The translations under genes and the position numbers were made by a program. This document shows, in pieces, positions 1,555 through 9,850 of a stretch of DNA of 26,047 nucleotides. The notes beneath the pieces are model-generated. The model was not told the origin of the DNA and made no database searches. It saw only the letters and a list, made by a program, of their open reading frames with translations. Location of the stretch: assembly GCA_030267965.1 (NCBI GenBank), contig BRYA01000103.1, forward strand, positions 1 through 26,047, given 5' to 3'. Each line of letters starts with the position of its first letter. The first letter of the stretch is position 1. The stretch comes from Triparma columacea. Lineage: Eukaryota > Sar > Bolidophyceae > Parmales > Triparmaceae.

Positions 1555-4500
1555 TTACCTCTTTTCTTTGTGTTCGCCTGTTAGACCTCCGGCCCCACCT
1601 TCCGATCCCTGATTTGTAACCTGACCGCTTGCCGATTCCGCCTTGTCTTCTGGTGTCCTTTTCGTTCCCGCTGGCTCCTTCTTTGCGTCCTTTGAGGTAT
1701 TGCTTTCCCCTTGGTTTCTCTTCTTCCCGGTCCAGCTCTCTGCGAGATTCAATTCGCATTCTTCAGTCGTGAGCACAATCTTTTCCCTGGCGGCTAGTGT
1801 CCTCCTTTCCACGATTGTTAGTGAGTCCCACCACGTGAGAAGATTGTGGATGGTCGAGATGTTTGAATTGAGCTGGTCCCGTCTCGCCCTCATTCCTGAC
1901 TTTTCAATGGCAGCCTGGAGGGCCGCGGCGATTGCGACCGAGATTGCGACCCACTCAGCCAAATCTACAACGCCTAGAAGGGCTCCAAAGGACGTGAAGA
2001 AGAAGGAAATGAGCTCAAGTGAGGTAAAGATGCGGTTCACTCTTGGAGCCTCTTCCTTGTAAAGGCAGACAAGCGGGATGAGCCTGCAAGCGATGTAAGT
2101 GTCGATGGCCAGAGGGCCGAACACTGTGTCCCTTTCTATTTTGATTTGCCCCTTATCTTTGATAGAATCGTCATTGCCTCCCTCGAAGCTGTAAAGCAGG
2201 TCCTCGATCTCTTGCTTTTGGACGATATGGCGCATACGGCTCTTGCTAATGGCGTTTTCGTTTGTCACTTCTTTAACGAATTCACTGAAAGAAGCTGTCT
2301 TATTCGCGGAAATGTCCCCCTCCACATCACTCGGTGCGATCTTTGTCCCCACATTTTTCGCCGCTTCCTTGAGAGTAGCCCAATTTTTTGACCTCGCAAG
2401 ATTACGTGTAGGGTGCCCTTCCTTGTCCTTCATGGCATTACTTAATCTTCTCTCATCCTTTCTCGGCGGCTTGTCGCTGCTCGTTTCGTAGACTTTATTT
2501 TGGCTCTTTTTTTGTTGTTCTGATCTGTGCAGAACTCCTCCTATCAAGTCACTCGCCCCAAGCTTATGCTTCTGGATCTTTTTGGGTTTTTTAGACTTTG
2601 ATTTCTTCTTATCCTCAACTACGTCGCCACCAGCTACCATCGGTGCATGCCCTTTGTGCAGCTCGTCGAGAATATGATCGTTTATCCCTGCCCTACTTTT
2701 AGCGATGCTGAAACTCTTTTTTGTTTGAGCGACGAGAGCGCTTGGTTGAGAATCCAAATTGAAGGGGAGGGAACCTGTCGTTCGTGGGTGAAAGGGATTG
2801 AGAAGGTGTGAGAAGGGGCTGAGGTGTGATCTCATATCCCATACAAAAATCATATACTGCGCTTACCGTTCTCGCCGACATCGGTCGACATGGCTTCATT
2901 GAAAATAGCTTGTATGCGGGTGACAAATATGTTCCTCTCTTCCACTTTTGTACCTGAAGTCCTCTGGACTTCTTCTGCCGATACGTCCCTGTACATCCCC
3001 ACCTTGGTCCTGAACATAAAGATTTCGGAACAAATTTGCATGCTGCTCATGTAGCTAATTTTCCACTTGCTCTCGAAGCTGTTCCTCGTCATCACCGTGC
3101 CGAGAAAACCTGCGATGATGGGTAGCATCACAATGAAAGTCTTCAACGTACTGCCGAACTGAGCCATGGCTTTAGCATCCTGGACGTACGAGTAGAGTTT
3201 GTCACATGAAGCCGGACCTCCAACTCCCCCCGCATCAACCGGATCGTAAGTGGGGCACGAATCACCGAGTAGTTTGGTGCGTCCCTTAACATCAAAAGAG
3301 TAGGCAATGTTCGAGTAGATCACAGAGCACACGGTGGTGAGAAATGCTGTTACTGCCAACATAATGTAGATTATCCTCCCCGTCAAGAACAGCGACTTTT
3401 GGTTGTAGAATAGAGCCTTGTGTCTCTCCCAGGCATTAAACACCACAAGTTCCTCGGCGTTCCCGACGCCCAACTCTGGAATACCTGTCTTCCCTCCGTT
3501 GGCAAAAACCTCGGTGATCGTGTGGAGAAAGTTTTCTGTACTCGTGTTAATGAGGTCGACAGAGACGATGAATGTATCAAACAGGTTAGGAGACCTCATA
3601 ATGGTGTCGTTGCAAAGATCAATGTCACTGTGTGCGTGTGTGGTGAATAGGGTTGGGATGGTGGCTTTAGTTGAGTTTCTAATTCTGTTGAGTTTCTAAT
3701 TGTGCTCTAATTGTGCTAGGGCTCACCTGATTCCGAACTTGTACGCCCACTTGTCCTCGTGCTGCAAAACTTGCAAAGACGCCTGGACCGAGGAGTTTAT
3801 TTCAGCTGATGTGATGTTGGGAAAGGACTCCCTTGCCTCGTTCTTCCACTGCATGCCGGCCCGGAGGGAGCAAAACGCCTGTGTGGCCGATCCAGTGTTC
3901 ATTAGCATCACAGAAGGGATACCGTTCCTTATGCAACACCTTATCTGCTTGTACTCAGCGTTCCCTCCATTCGCAAAAATGTAGCCAACCGAACCAAGGT
4001 CGGACCTGTTGAAATTGTAACCTTTCTCGTCCAAGATGACGTAATGCGTACCACTCGAGAATAGCGTGGATGTGTAGTGCATGCTCCAGATGCTCTTGGG
4101 GTGCATCGTGTCACTCGAAAACTGCTTCTGGTGCTCCTCGGGGTAGAAAGGGAGGTTCTCCTGCATCGCAAATTTCCTCCAGTCGTCAAACTCCGTAAAT
4201 TCTCTGAAGCAGGGAATTTGGCATTCCTCGCAGTTCTTTGCGTTTGCGAAAGTAGCCGTTTGCAAATCTTCCACCTTTTTCAGGTTCGGGTTTTCGTTGC
4301 GCATTCTGAGAAGCTCTTTGCCCTGCTGCATCGCGATTTTGTTCGTCGCGGGTGCACTAAAAAACCTTGACATGGAGTCAATGACAATTATTACAGGGCT
4401 CGCTTGAGTGCGACGGAGGGCGTGCTCAAGCAGGAGCTCGGCTGTCGGGGAGTGGTCGGGTGAAGTGCGATCCACGAGGATCCAGTTGTTGGCCTGGGCG

Positions 4501-6207
4501 GAGCTCTCGACAATGGTGACATAGCAACTGATCAACCTTTCGAATAGCAATTTGCTCAATATCGATTCGATGTTGGACTGCTCCCTTGTGTCCGCCACGA
4601 TGGCTTTTCGAGTAGAAAATGGCAGATAGTTCCCGCCCATATTGACACCGAGCCCATCGTCGTCATCGTCGTCTACGTTGTCAATGGCCAAAGATCTGGG
4701 GGGCTTGATTTTAACCTTTTTCTTCCTTCGAAGCTTATCAACAAACCTCTTCATGCGTTTCTCTTTTTCTGAATCTGAGGAACTGGACGAGGACAGCGAA
4801 TTCGAAGATGATGACGAATCACCTGACGAGAAGCCACTTTCGTCGCAACGATAGACGTCGTATTCTGAGTCTTTGTTGAAGATGCCAGAGCCCTGTCTTC
4901 GAGCTCCTTCATCAAGGGCTAGCATCTTGGAATTTCTCAAGGAGGCCAAAAAATGCGGCGAAAAGCTTGTGGGGGCACCAGTATGGTCAACCTCGGTCTC
5001 GGTGTCGGCTTCTTCTCCTTTCGTGACCTCGAAGACTTCGGGTGATAGTCTCTTTGAAGATGGTGATGATCCTCTTGACGATGATTCTCGTCCACGATTG
5101 TGATGTTGTCTCAACCGCATTATCGGCTTTGCGAGCCTCTTCTTCAGTAACTTTTGCTTCCTCTTCACCTGCAGAGACGCTTCCTTCTTCAAATGTTGGT
5201 AACCAGGGGTTTCGGCGAGAAGGGAGTTCACGAGGACCTTAGGATGCCTACTGCCTGCGCAGAGCTTGAGAATCATGTTTGCCTCGCCCATTCCCCATAT
5301 TTCCTTCGCGATATCTGGGTAGCGTGCATTCTTGTTTTGTGTGACCTCGGGAATGAAGATGATACTCTTGGATGTATCAGAACGACTTTCGGGGACGCCC
5401 GTCCTGAAAGAGAAGCGGCCATACTTCACAAACTCATCCTCTTGGTCTTCTATTTCAAGCTCAGCAGATCCCACAATATTTTCTCCATCGTATTTGACTC
5501 CTCCAGCTGCACTTCGCATGAGATCTGCATGAACCATAATTTCCCCAGCTTCCCTGGCCTTCTCGACAAAGATAGTCGAAGCACGTGACTCGTGCATGGG
5601 AGGGGGGCTGGCGGGTGGGTTCAGGACGGATGGAAAGTAGTGCTCAGTGGGCTCTTGGCTGAACATGGCCTCGTTTTCCCTGATGAAGTTGGACGTGGTG
5701 CTGGCGTCGTCTTCGTCCAGCAGGGGTAGCTGCGTTCATGATGCGGGGTGTTTTGGCTTAGGGGCGTAGAGAGGGATGAAGGCTCGATGTGAAAGGCTCG
5801 AGGTGACATTCGTTCGAATCGTATTTCCCACCTCATCTCACCTGCTCAGCTAAAGATGACAACTCCAAATCATTGTCTTGGATACCTTGGCTGCGTTGCG
5901 GAGCCTGTCGGTTCGTCGCCCCCGCTATTCCCACCGCAGCAGTCTTGACTTGCTCCTCAATGCCCTGCTGAATCTCTGAGATTGGCGGGGATGCCCTCAT
6001 CATCACGGGGGGGCCACCAACAGAGCTGGGGACATTGGTGGGAATATTTCCCTCGAAGAAGATCCCGTCACTACTCGCCTTGGGACTCGCATCGAGTGAT
6101 CCGAACCTCTTCCTGTTCTTCATAAAGTGTGCCACAGTTTCTTCTGGCATCGCTTTGTTCGAACCTAGCTGTCTTGAAGATCCTGAGTGATGCTTTGAAA
6201 TTGGCAT
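1555..6207 (-). CDS. SLOG (TRPM/LSDAT-like) protein with two DUF4231/SLATT-like 2TM modules, four exons
   Basis: The exons are 6207-5842, 5729-3727, 3627-2867 and 2774-1555, with introns of 112, 99 and 92 bp (GTGAG, GTGAG, GTAAG donors; CAG acceptors). They join in frame to about 1449 residues. Residues 1-240 look disordered. SLOG-like segments follow: EIWGMGEANMILKLCAGSRH (about 265-284), NNWILVDRTSPDHSP (about 537-551), THYVILDEKGYNF, and IPSVMLMNTGSATQAF. A Ser/Asp-rich insert (about 330-490) separates the first from the rest. This order resembles the N-terminal LSDAT/SLOG region of TRPM channels. A first 2TM unit has helices near 882-903 and 952-968, then KWKISYMSSMQICSEIFMFR, a DUF4231/SLATT-type pattern. 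A second 2TM unit is near 1293-1336, followed by WWDSLTIVERRTLAAREK. No ion-channel pore is visible. SLOG domains bind nucleotides in the known families; membrane signalling or effector activity is my inference. The domain calls come from motif reading only. Confidence 0.7.
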
Positions 6208-6430
6208 CGTGCCAGAGCCCTCAAAATTACGATTGATTTATTAAAATCAACCTCCTCCTCTCGCACCCTCGCAAAGTCCAACAGCCAAAAGGTGTAATTC
6301 GTCGCCAAATACTCCGTAGATCACGTAAGGGGTGGTCCCAAAAGTCCGGGGGGCGGTCAACCTGCTTCCGATTACAATTTTACGCCGTAACAGCCAAGGC
6401 ACCTAACGTCTGAGTCTGAAGTCTCAAAAA
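6208..6430. promoter_or_regulatory. Divergent intergenic region of the SLOG/2TM gene and the C1a-32-like gene
   Basis: The two start codons face away from each other across 223 bp, so both promoters must lie here or overlap the 5' ends. The sequence holds an AT-rich stretch near 6235-6255 (gatttattaaaatcaacc). I cannot identify a specific factor-binding site. Confidence 0.4.
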
Positions 6431-7343
6431 ATGTCTGAGGAATCTGTTGCAACCAATGAGGTCGTCAATGAGGGCGAGGTTGAGGTGGCAATGGGCCTTG
6501 CATACAGCGACCTCAACAAGGACCAGCTCGATGCGATATTTAACACCGAGGACATGGATGAGAGAATAAGGTGAGCGGTTAAGGTTCAGGGAAGTTGGGG
6601 TTATTTGGACGTTTGGGGTCACAGCGAAGGTAATATATGGTCCCTTTGGAAGTGTTGGTCCTCAGACTAGGCTTTAGCTCTCCCCATATGACTGCGTTTG
6701 GCACCCTGGGGCATAAAACTGCCTCAGCTACCCCCTTCCCCCCCCGAGCTCTCCTCTCACCAACCTGATCTCCCCCCCCAGGCTCACGGCGGAGTCCTTG
6801 AATGTGAAACACTACTCGAACAACGCGCGGAGCGCCATAATCGTTGACTTCTGCTATTTCAATATCATGTTTGCCAAGGAGAATGAGTTCACCGACCAGC
6901 AGACGAGCGCCTTTTACTCCATCATGCTGAAGGTCTTCGTGTCGGCTGTCGACGAGGGGATTTCTTCGACCGAGGCCTTCGATTTGTTCAAGAAGCTCAT
7001 TCTTACGCACAGTATTGAAGATGGGGAGGCTGTCGAACTGTACTCACTTCCCCTCGTCAAGAAGATCAGTAACTACGTGAGCAACACCTTCTTCAGGTAC
7101 CTCGACACCTATAAGTATGTGTTCGCCACGGTCCAGTCCGTCGTCACAGAGACTACGGAGCTTCAGGTCGAAACTCCCCTCGTGCCACAATTCCTGGCTG
7201 AGGCTACGACGGAGGAGAACGTCGAAGTGTTTGATGACGGCGAGGAGGGAGGAGATGAGGGTGCTGAGGAAGAAGATGGTGCGGGAACGGGGCTGGGTCA
7301 GGGTGGAGAGGGCGTTGGGGAGGTGTTTGAGCTCAGTGTATAA
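6431..7343 (+). CDS. C1a-32/CFAP119-like flagellar central-apparatus protein
   Basis: Exon 1 is 6431-6570, the intron is 6571-6781 (GTGAGC...CAG) and exon 2 is 6782-7343, giving 233 residues. The core at about residues 60-150, with SAIIVDFCYFNIMFAKENEF followed by TDQQTSAFYSIMLKVF, matches my memory of the CFAP119/CCDC189 (Chlamydomonas C1a-32) family, which sits in the C1a projection of the axonemal central pair and helps control flagellar beating. The last 40 residues are acidic and Gly-rich (EEGGDEGAEEEDG), a common tail in axonemal proteins. The start has a good context (AAAAATG). The gene is divergent from the SLOG/2TM gene and ends 205 bp before the exchanger start. The alternative is another small axonemal protein of similar fold. 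Confidence 0.65.
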
Positions 7344-7548
7344 CGTAAAACAGTTCATTCTTTCACAACAAAGAGAAAATTCAACGTCCGGCAAACCTTT
7401 CTCGCCGCTTTTCCCCCTGCTTTTCCGCGTTGGGGTAAAAAAGACGTGCTCCATAAGTTCTGTTAATCATTTCAGTTTCCGTTGCAGAGTCTATCTTTTC
7501 TGGAAAAATGTGGGGACAAGGCGCAGCCCAAACTCCCAGAATTTGTGT

Positions 7549-9850
7549 ATGTTGCCCTGTTATGCCCTGCATGACGCCAGGACGGGGAGGGCAACTCCTG
7601 CCCTCAAGTTCTCGGTTAAGGCTGGGGCATTTTTGATGCTCGTGGGTGGTTACATCGTCTACAACGGAGTTACAGAAGGATTTTTTCATCGTGCAACCCC
7701 TCCAGGGTCTCCATCCCGGCAATTGGAAGATTGCCCTGATCCAGAGTCCGCGGGGGGGTTCGTAGTGTTTTATATAATGGGTGTCTTATATATGTTCGTC
7801 GCCCTAGCGATTGTTTGCGACGAGTACTTCGTTCCAGCCCTTGAGGTGATCAGTGACAAGTGGGATTTATCGAATGATATTGCCGGGGCCACTCTCATGG
7901 CTGCGGGGGGCTCGGCGCCGGAGCTCTTCACGTCGCTGACAGGAACGTTCAAAAATAGCGACGTCGGTTTCGGCACCATCGTCGGCTCTGCCGTTTTCAA
8001 CGTCATGTTCGTCATAGGGGTGTGTGCGGTTGCCTCGGTCAAGGTCCTGAACCTCACGTGGTGGCCTCTCGCCAGGGACTGCTCCTACTACGCCATCACT
8101 CTCTTCATCCTCTCGAGGTTCATGTCCGATACTGAAATTTATTGGCACGAGGCTTTCATCCTGCTATGTCTCTACGGCGTTTACGTATTGATGATGGCCT
8201 ACAATGTCAGAATCCACAAGTTCATCCTCGAAAGGTTGCTGAAGTACGACGATATCACGGTAAAACTTGCCCTGGCAGAGGCGGGCGACGAGGACGAGGT
8301 GAATTTGTTGAAGCCCACAGGCTTCAGGGCTGGTCTGTACAAGTTCTTGACAGGCAAAGGTGAGGAAGGAACGATTGCTGGGGGCGCGCAGCAGAAACTG
8401 TTTTTGTTTTTCGTCTCTTACTCTGCGTGCTTCCCCTTCGCCCCCTAGGTTCCCTCACAGAAACTGCCGGAACTGCCATTGTCACCCAAATTGCAGGAGA
8501 TGTCAAAGACACGTTCAACAAGATTGATAGCAACCAAGATGGCACCCTACAAGTCAATGAGGTTGGGAACTTGCTGAAGGAGGTTACTGGAGGAGGAGCA
8601 GGGGCGAAGATCAACCCCGAGGACGTCAAGGTGGTAATGGCCGAGATTGACACTGACGGGGACGGTGAGGTGAGCCTCGAAGAGTTCACCAATTGGTACC
8701 TCAAGTCGGAGGAGAGGATAAAAAGTGATATCAAGGTCGCATTCGATCGATATGATGGGACGAAGGAGGGCACTGTGAAAGACGGCACCTTGACCCCAGA
8801 GGAGGTCAAGAAGGTGAGTGAAGTATTCGTGTGTTGGACGATGACGATGTGTGACGATGGGCATATTATTGTGCATGAGATCTCCTCACAAACTTACCCT
8901 TTTCCTCAGGCCCTCAAGGAGCTCAACAGCAGCGCAGTGGACGATAACGAGGTCGATGCTGCCTGTCTGAACATGACGAAAGGTAGGCCAAACTCAATCG
9001 TAACGTTCGAGGACTTCCAGTCCTTTTACATGGGGAGCGCGCTCAGCAAAAGGAGGGCGAGCGTCATGGCGGAGCAGGCGGAAGCCGCGGCCGGGGTTGA
9101 CCTCAGCATGCCCACGGAGGGGGGCTTATTGGCAAAGGCGAATTGGGCAATTTGCCTTCCCCTTATGTACGTCATGATGGCGATCCCAGACGTGCGAGTA
9201 CCGGGGAAGGAGAAGTACTGCTTCGTATCCTTCTTCGTGAGCATCTGTTATATTGGTTTCTTCTCATACTTCATGGTCGAATGGGCATCTACCGTCGGCC
9301 AAACCTTCAGGTGCGTCAGAACCGGAGTTGGCTTGTCCACTATCGGAGCTATCTCTAGCCGCCGCCGCTCCATTCCTTCTAACCCGTCGTCCCCCGACAC
9401 TTCCTATTTTTGCGGTTAACTTTCTTCCGCCACAGGATCCCAGAGGTTGTCATGGGTCTTACGATACTTGCCGCTGGCACCTCCGTGCCGGATCTTCTCT
9501 CCTCTGTCATTGTAGCTAAACAGGGTCATGGTGACATGGCCGTAAGCTCTTCCATCGGTTCCAACATATTCGACATTCTCGTCGGTCTACCTCTACCCTG
9601 GCTGCTTTATTCCGTCTACCACAGCGGGCAGGAGAAATTCAACGTCCCCGTAAAGGTCAAGGCTGACTCCCTCGAGTTGAGCCTCTTCATATTGATCGGG
9701 ATGCTCGCCGTAGTAGTCGGAAGTATCGCATTCAGCAATTGGAGGATGACGAAGAAGATGGGCTATTTCTACTTCTTCATGTACTTTTGTTACGTGGGAC
9801 AGGAGTTACTGAGGGAGTACGTCTTCAGCGACTCGAAGTCTTGCTTTTAA
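7549..9850 (+). CDS. K+-dependent Na+/Ca2+ exchanger (NCKX/SLC24 type) with EF-hands in the central loop
   Basis: The exons are 7549-8359, 8449-8813, 8910-9310 and 9436-9850, joining in frame to 663 residues. The first helix (about 24-42) precedes the alpha-1 repeat [20 protein letters not shown] (from residue 113) and the alpha-2 repeat [17 protein letters not shown] (from 533) with [19 protein letters not shown]; these carry the acidic ion-binding residues and are typical of NCKX. The large cytosolic loop contains two canonical EF-hand loops, [12 protein letters not shown] (297-308) and [12 protein letters not shown] (338-349), and two weaker EF-like segments. The protein should export Ca2+ using the Na+ gradient (and possibly K+), with the loop sensing cytosolic Ca2+; regulation is inferred. 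The start at 7549 is the only in-frame ATG upstream of the first helix after the previous gene. Confidence 0.9.

Follow-up and report, generated by a model that had tools for sequence, protein, structure and literature searches.

The gene studied here (C103, or the window gene) lies at positions 1555..6207 on the minus strand of Triparma columacea contig BRYA01000103.1, the full stretch of which, 26,047 nucleotides, is referred to as the window. It is almost certainly a diverged eukaryotic member of a bacterial family whose proteins carry a SLOG (LSDAT) domain, a DUF4231 module and a SLATT_1 module on a single chain. The sequence-only reading that preceded this analysis had placed a SLOG region ahead of a DUF4231-like unit with two transmembrane segments (2TM) and a SLATT-like 2TM unit, a reading that is borne out by homologues, profile-profile matches and the structure model of a paralogue. 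Established are the structure of the gene, the identity and order of its three modules, the bacterial homology, the occurrence in several Triparma species and the presence of several related genes in the genome. The best explanation overall, which is probable, is that of a diverged family member in which a SLOG ligand would gate a pore made of the two 2TM modules; the narrower statement that the protein acts as a ligand-gated membrane pore or channel is evenly poised.

The interval corresponds exactly to one minus-strand gene of four exons (6207-5842, 5729-3727, 3627-2867 and 2774-1555), and all three introns, which measure 112, 99 and 92 bases, have GT-AG borders. Splicing gives a single open frame of 1449 residues plus stop, and with homologues in several Triparma species the earlier claim of a eukaryotic fusion in one long protein holds. 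The first exon junction is supported by T. retinervis P0009, which in a by-eye comparison is continuous across the join, and the second and third by T. verrucosa P0001, which is continuous in the alignment. The exons and the linker between the 2TM modules are as follows.

5842..6207, minus strand: exon 1 (residues 1-122), an N-terminus without Pfam match
3727..5729, minus strand: exon 2 (residues 123-789), the SLOG region and its insertion
2867..3627, minus strand: exon 3 (residues 791-1043 and the shared codons 790 and 1044), the DUF4231-type 2TM module
1555..2774, minus strand: exon 4 (residues 1045-1449 and the stop), a charged linker, the SLATT_1-type 2TM module and a tail
2140..2769, minus strand: Lys/Ser-rich linker of 210 residues (1046-1255) that separates both 2TM modules

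The best match of the window protein is a T. verrucosa hypothetical protein with 46% identity. The named Triparma relatives are P0001 (T. verrucosa), P0005 (T. laevis) and P0009 (T. retinervis), P0007 is an MMETSP transcript, and P0002, P0003, P0004, P0006 and P0008 were grouped with the eukaryotes by similarity (the algal/environmental rows). Comparison of nine algal/environmental with five bacterial sequences in hhalign produced one collinear alignment (probability 99.7, E 1.7e-25) that begins late in SLOG and reaches the end of SLATT. Both sets were also cut into modules and compared all against all, with seven to eight algal/environmental rows per module and 121 bacterial ones. Matches were found between like modules only, with E values of 8.6e-7 for the C-terminal half of SLOG, 4.1e-16 for DUF4231 and 7.2e-22 for SLATT, while the lowest E value was 0.014 among unlike pairings and 0.023 among 25 controls with reversed sequence. 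By these comparisons the window protein is a member of the single-chain LSDAT-DUF4231-SLATT_1 family, with the three modules in order on one polypeptide.

Direct scans give a different picture, and the results that weigh against the assignment are set out here. The Pfam cut-offs are 26.3 bits for SLATT_1 (PF18181), 24.7 for DUF4231 (PF14015) and 25.4 for LSDAT (PF18139, PF18171), and every Pfam match of the window protein lies below its cut-off. DUF4231 reaches 15.3 bits in exon 3 alone (E=0.028) and SLATT_1 15.6 bits in exon 4 alone (E=0.017), and neither LSDAT profile matches anywhere in the protein. Its NCBIfam matches are likewise sub-threshold (SLATT_1 at 13.9 bits against 41), PADLOC profiles have no match to the three exon pieces, a PDB sequence search with exon 2 returns one match at chance level (E 0.96) and a PDB search with a profile returns three at E 0.57 or worse. 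Five of the six homologues covering the SLATT_1 module also stay under 26.3 bits (P0002 25.2, P0003 24.1, P0007 21.6, P0008 17 and P0005 13). The N-terminal half of SLOG aligns with its bacterial counterpart in the expected register over 53 columns but alone is not significant (0.056), and the second transmembrane (TM) hairpin falls under the hydropathy threshold in two of seven bacterial proteins examined (P0012 and P0127). Among the relatives the best DUF4231 score is 17.3 bits, in P0008, and the best LSDAT score 15.4 bits, in the paralogue C563, where LSDAT_prok gives E 0.011 around NNTGGCTQAF.

At the level of sequence, the direct scan alone thus leaves the SLOG/DUF4231/SLATT assignment undecided and it is the relatives that decide it. 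The SLATT_1 cut-off is exceeded by P0001 (33 bits) and by C563 (27.6 bits), and the assignment is supported beyond chance by the homologues, the controlled profile-profile comparison with bacterial proteins and the paralogue structure model. The profile check by module that had been proposed came out in part, with no LSDAT match and sub-threshold DUF4231 and SLATT_1 when applied directly, but with SLATT_1 passed by relatives and significant profile-profile matches.

The bacterial side of the family was reached from P0001, a search with which led to a Hymenobacter plasmid protein (E 7e-4, over 10% of length). LSDAT_prok, DUF4231 and SLATT_1 follow one another in that order in this protein and in four of four further bacterial proteins whose domains were mapped, and the orthologue search that the earlier reading called for thus finds the order conserved in all five. 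A family search with an alignment of the five bacterial proteins, P0005 and P0007, in which 7999 candidates were scored, gave 412 proteins; all three Pfam families occur together on one chain in each of the 120 matches listed, which show the presence of the families, the order being that mapped in the five. An organism name is given for 15 of these 120, all of them bacteria (Hymenobacter, Blastocatellia, Pyrinomonadaceae, Methylumidiphilus and others). The bacterial three-module family is patchily distributed, as there are few matches in the sampled genomes and plasmids: two in a sample of 395 genomes of the Hymenobacter phylum, one of them the query's own genome, two among 72,556 plasmid records, and two loci out of 23 pattern stretches in a scan of genome contigs.

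Bacterial LSDAT_prok-DUF4231-SLATT_1 proteins such as WP_243803067.1 of a Hymenobacter tibetensis plasmid thus share with the window protein the three modules, their order and the single polypeptide. They are shorter, at 588-773 residues among the matches listed versus 1449, and the algal proteins differ in their altered loops, their long insertions and, in one clade, a cysteine pair between TM1 and TM2. The suggestion that the protein is of an undescribed kind consequently survives in part. The layout is known from bacteria, and two Triparma homologues already carry a database name beginning 'SMODS and SLOG-associating 2TM ef...'; for the eukaryotic family no describing paper was found in a literature search that was made without the likeliest place, Burroughs et al. 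2015 (NAR). The main text of the Parmales genome paper has no word beginning 'TRP' and no 'ion channel' (PMC10328945). The layout itself has bacterial precedent; what is new is its eukaryotic form, diverged, spliced and spread over several genes.

The two 2TM modules are made up as follows.

2868..3464, minus strand: DUF4231-type 2TM module (residues 845-1043; profile-profile E 4.1e-16 against the bacterial DUF4231 region)
3303..3395, minus strand: TM1 candidate from hydropathy (residues 868-898)
3084..3158, minus strand: TM2 candidate from hydropathy (residues 947-971)
2988..3077, minus strand: conserved helix F.SKWK..Y...Q..SEI..FR.K...Y after TM2 (residues 974-1003), presumably on the cytosolic side
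1735..2139, minus strand: SLATT_1 module (residues 1256-1390; profile-profile E 7.2e-22; homologue P0001 33 bits)
1906..2031, minus strand: TM hairpin of the SLATT module from hydropathy (residues 1292-1333)

The KWK...SEIFMFRTKVGMYR pattern that had been noticed in the first 2TM unit is found at residues 977-1003 (window 2988-3068). In the 27-row alignment used for the tree, the helix after TM2 has [KR]W in 24 rows and E[IM] in all 27, and a WW..L motif common to the bacteria and the algal/environmental set is present in 26. A cysteine pair, SCP...CDKL, lies between TM1 and TM2 in four of eight rows (the window protein and three relatives), which suggests that this loop is exoplasmic. The bacterial DUF4231 region also matches SLATT_3 over the cut-off of 26.3 in two of four three-module proteins (37.9 and 27.7 bits), with the Hymenobacter plasmid protein below it at 15.3 bits, and the chain may therefore be read as SLOG plus two SLATT-type modules. 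The effector domains SLATT_1 and DUF4231 (SLATT_3-related) likewise consist of a TM hairpin followed by long helices and share common motifs with the modules described here, which differ in standing in tandem within a eukaryotic chain of 1449 residues. A putative 2TM pore domain in a protist setting is also described for SLATT proteins of cryptophyte polinton-like viruses; there it is SLATT_4, in two transcripts of viral elements, and the passages that describe them mention no SLOG fusion (PMC12220804).

The SLOG domain is split by a long insertion and comprises the following parts.

5223..5369, minus strand: N-terminal SLOG segment, W..GEANMILKLCAGSRHPK (residues 243-291), likely the first strand and loop
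4584..5198, minus strand: Ser/Lys/Arg/Asp-rich insertion of 205 residues (300-504) splitting the domain, delimited from alignments
3861..4583, minus strand: SLOG core (residues 505-745), the C-terminal half of which matches bacterial LSDAT in profile-profile comparison
4428..4475, minus strand: DR-x(5)-SPTAEL loop (residues 541-556), bacterial counterpart DGGTQaGVM
3870..3905, minus strand: NTGSATQAF loop (within residues 731-742), bacterial counterpart GSGGlAD

Across nine rows the N-terminal segment is kept in the window protein, P0001, P0002, P0009 and P0005, is present as a close variant in P0007, is degenerate in P0003 and is uncovered in P0004 and P0008; the P0005 model predicts strands at this segment. 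The N-terminal 400 residues of P0003, a divergent environmental homologue, form a different long region ahead of the SLOG core.

The loops bear on the proposed nucleotide gating. Relaxed patterns of the bacterial loops DGGTqaGVM and GSGGlAD are present in 110 and 108 of 121 sequences, respectively, and judged by their sequences the algal proteins do not have these glycine-rich loops. The position of DGGTxxGV reads DR-x(4-6)-S-xxx-EL in all eight algal/environmental rows that cover it, with a displaced GG retained in P0007, and the position of GSGGxAD reads x[TS]G[GS]x[TS]Q[AV]F in seven of seven, AD being replaced by TQ or SQ. The paralogue C563 has NR in place of DR and keeps the second loop, and the gene on C38 keeps neither algal loop. 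With the bacterial loops replaced, the binding of nucleotides may have altered or disappeared. An [ST]-G core is retained in the second loop of the algal proteins, and the algal pocket is probably changed rather than dead, a lost pocket being the less likely alternative.

Structure models add further cautions. An AF2 model built from the nine-row alignment for the SLOG region of the window protein failed, with a predicted local distance difference test score (pLDDT) of 38.5 and a predicted TM-score (pTM) of 0.29. In the model of the paralogue P0005, the SLOG part is predicted by Foldseek to have a TRPM MHR1/2-like fold, but 25 of the 32 rows in its alignment are bacterial and the fold is therefore not fully independent evidence. 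The Foldseek TM-scores of this model are low (0.17-0.25 by query length; by target, 0.44 for two TRPM domains taken alone), and the root-mean-square deviation is 17-20 Å in several of the top VIA rows. With the bacterial SLOG profile, a match at 2.4e-15 is obtained in the PDB chain 9nw3_6A, which has 346 residues and is named 'Cation channel family protein'.

The window protein is proposed to sit in a membrane via two helical hairpins, which would make four TM segments; its two termini, the SLOG domain and the linkers would probably lie in the cytosol. A small ligand, probably nucleotide- or phosphate-bearing, would bind the SLOG domain and alter the packing of the two 2TM modules so that an ion-permeable pore opens or assembles, possibly in an oligomer. 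This gating would be analogous to that of TRPM channels, which gate a different pore with the same kind of domain, and for the MHR1/2 region of TRPM2 from zebrafish, binding of ADP-ribose has been reported (PMC13143021). The physiological role may lie in stress, infection or prey signalling.

The strongest competitor, though rather unlikely, is that the SLOG ligand has been lost and that the 2TM modules and long charged linkers hold a ligand-free scaffold, serving as a constitutive membrane anchor or assembly platform. Ligand loops that are altered in every covering row and missing altogether in C38, Ser/Lys-rich insertions of 205 and 210 residues and the very long branches of C38 and P0003 would all fit such a scaffold. 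It is at odds with the algal loop x[TS]G[GS]x[TS]Q[AV]F, whose conservation in seven of seven rows and in C563 suggests a maintained pocket, and with the TRPM-like fold retained in the paralogue model.

It is unlikely, somewhat more so than a scaffold, that the protein is a conflict-system effector that permeabilises the membrane and kills the cell on a virus- or stress-induced nucleotide signal, as predicted for bacterial SLATT, which two papers predict to be a nucleotide-responsive pore-forming effector (PMC7159879, PMC9503650). The several related genes in this genome would suit such a role, as would part of the surroundings of the bacterial homologues, for which five loci were read (L018, L019, L020, L028 and L029). 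In both Hymenobacter loci a predicted peptidoglycan hydrolase gene lies directly upstream, within about 55 bases.

L018 (plasmid), 1995-2660, same strand as the SLOG-DUF4231-SLATT_1 gene: Glyco_hydro_108/PG_binding_3 gene, 65.4 bits
L020 (chromosome contig), 1976-2947, same strand as the SLOG-DUF4231-SLATT_1 gene: Glyco_hydro_108/PG_binding_3 gene, 63.5 bits

A hydrolase encoded next to a 2TM protein is reminiscent of the lysis pairs of phages and would fit a permeabilising role, although two loci of one genus are no proof. In L029 (genome G035) a TIR-NACHT-TPR gene at 5550-8621, with NACHT at 26.3 bits against a cut-off of 26.7, is arranged tail to tail with the bacterial homologue. Neither kind of neighbour occurs in L019 or L028, and L019, L028 and L029 have no hydrolase or other neighbour in common. 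No signal maker was identified in the T. columacea genome, as SMODS was not found in it and TIR_2 has a single match below cut-off, which speaks against nucleotide signalling of the conflict type. The PADLOC result for the three exon pieces and the viral contigs also tell against an effector; scanned with both profiles, the latter yielded no relative (0 of 59 and 0 of 96 pattern stretches) in two scans of limited reach with two peptide patterns each.

It is very improbable that the protein is a TRPM channel with a misread pore, or with a pore encoded by an exon that escaped annotation. The SLOG fold predicted by the paralogue model is of the TRPM MHR1/2 type, but Ion_trans has no Pfam match in the window protein, in agreement with the earlier observation that there is no TRP pore. 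The gene ends in a stop, its downstream modules match bacterial DUF4231 and SLATT_1, the LSDAT_euk and Ion_trans exons of this genome sit on another contig (C372), and the collinear match to bacterial proteins contradicts this reading. Bacterial contamination or an assembly artefact, suggested by an architecture otherwise known from bacteria, is hardly credible and is contradicted by the three GT-AG introns, the related genes on other contigs and the homologues that occur in records of named Triparma species and in an MMETSP transcript.

Relatives of the window gene were searched for in the T. columacea genome (G000; 37.85 Mb, 789 contigs). The paralogue on C563 is related over nearly its full length and is close to T. 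laevis P0005 (40% over P0005 residues 321-912). Where the KWK motif has its conserved Trp, this gene reads TGA in frame, and the frame is open on both sides (L014, which is G000:C563:21500-30000, positions 3235-3237, minus strand); it may be a pseudogene, or the TGA may reflect a sequencing error or readthrough. C38 carries a single long open frame with weak similarity (SLATT_1 12.3 bits, below cut-off). A gene on C683 exceeds the SLATT_1 cut-off at 35.6 bits, with no SLOG part found in it. About 4.3 kb of C372 (L017, L031) contain, on a single strand, exons for LSDAT_euk (67.7 bits) and for Ion_trans (38.6 bits), which likely form one TRPM-like gene.

A tree of the DUF4231 and SLATT region, read without a root or a direction of transfer, separates the eight algal/environmental rows from 19 bacterial rows by a long branch with support of 98/96 and places the window protein with P0001 (100/91). 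The bootstrap had not settled, the tool gave a warning that long branches meet, and the branches of C38 and P0003 are very long. The topology is compatible with a single origin. Parmales are the sister group of diatoms, and phagotrophy is inferred for them in the genome paper (PMC10328945), which would offer a possible route for bacterial genes.

In TRPM channels a sensor domain of bacterial type is coupled to a TRP pore. These channels resemble the window protein in having a SLOG fold of MHR1/2 type, as predicted by the paralogue model, in a membrane protein, and differ in the pore, in place of which two 2TM modules are found here; the TRPM-like exons of this genome are separate. Beside those exons the algal genome holds an alternative arrangement, which combines a sensor of this kind with bacterial 2TM effector modules. 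A module family predicted for bacterial conflict systems is now seen in a stable, spliced, multi-copy gene family of the diatoms' sister group, which offers a natural test of SLATT pore formation and of the uptake of SLOG sensors by eukaryotes. More tentatively, a channel or pore of non-TRP type, controlled by a SLOG sensor of the TRPM kind, may be in use in Parmales and some other marine protists. It would be an ancient acquisition from bacterial SLOG-SLATT effectors that was multiplied into several genes and adapted to a new ligand through a pocket specific to the lineage (formed by the loops DR...S...EL and N[TS]GG.TQAF).

Some features lie around these genes. The SLATT genes on C563 and C683 adjoin what look, from their motifs, like cytosolic chaperonin (CCT) subunit genes (L014 5922-7803 and L016 2409-4416). 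In the window, plus-strand frames at 7500-9850 presumably encode a sodium/calcium-exchanger-type transporter with EF-hand-like stretches, again judging from motifs. A long direct repeat at 172-572, inside a minus-strand frame over 1-891, contains AADRAAAHERTADRIETIEVAQRRA twice.

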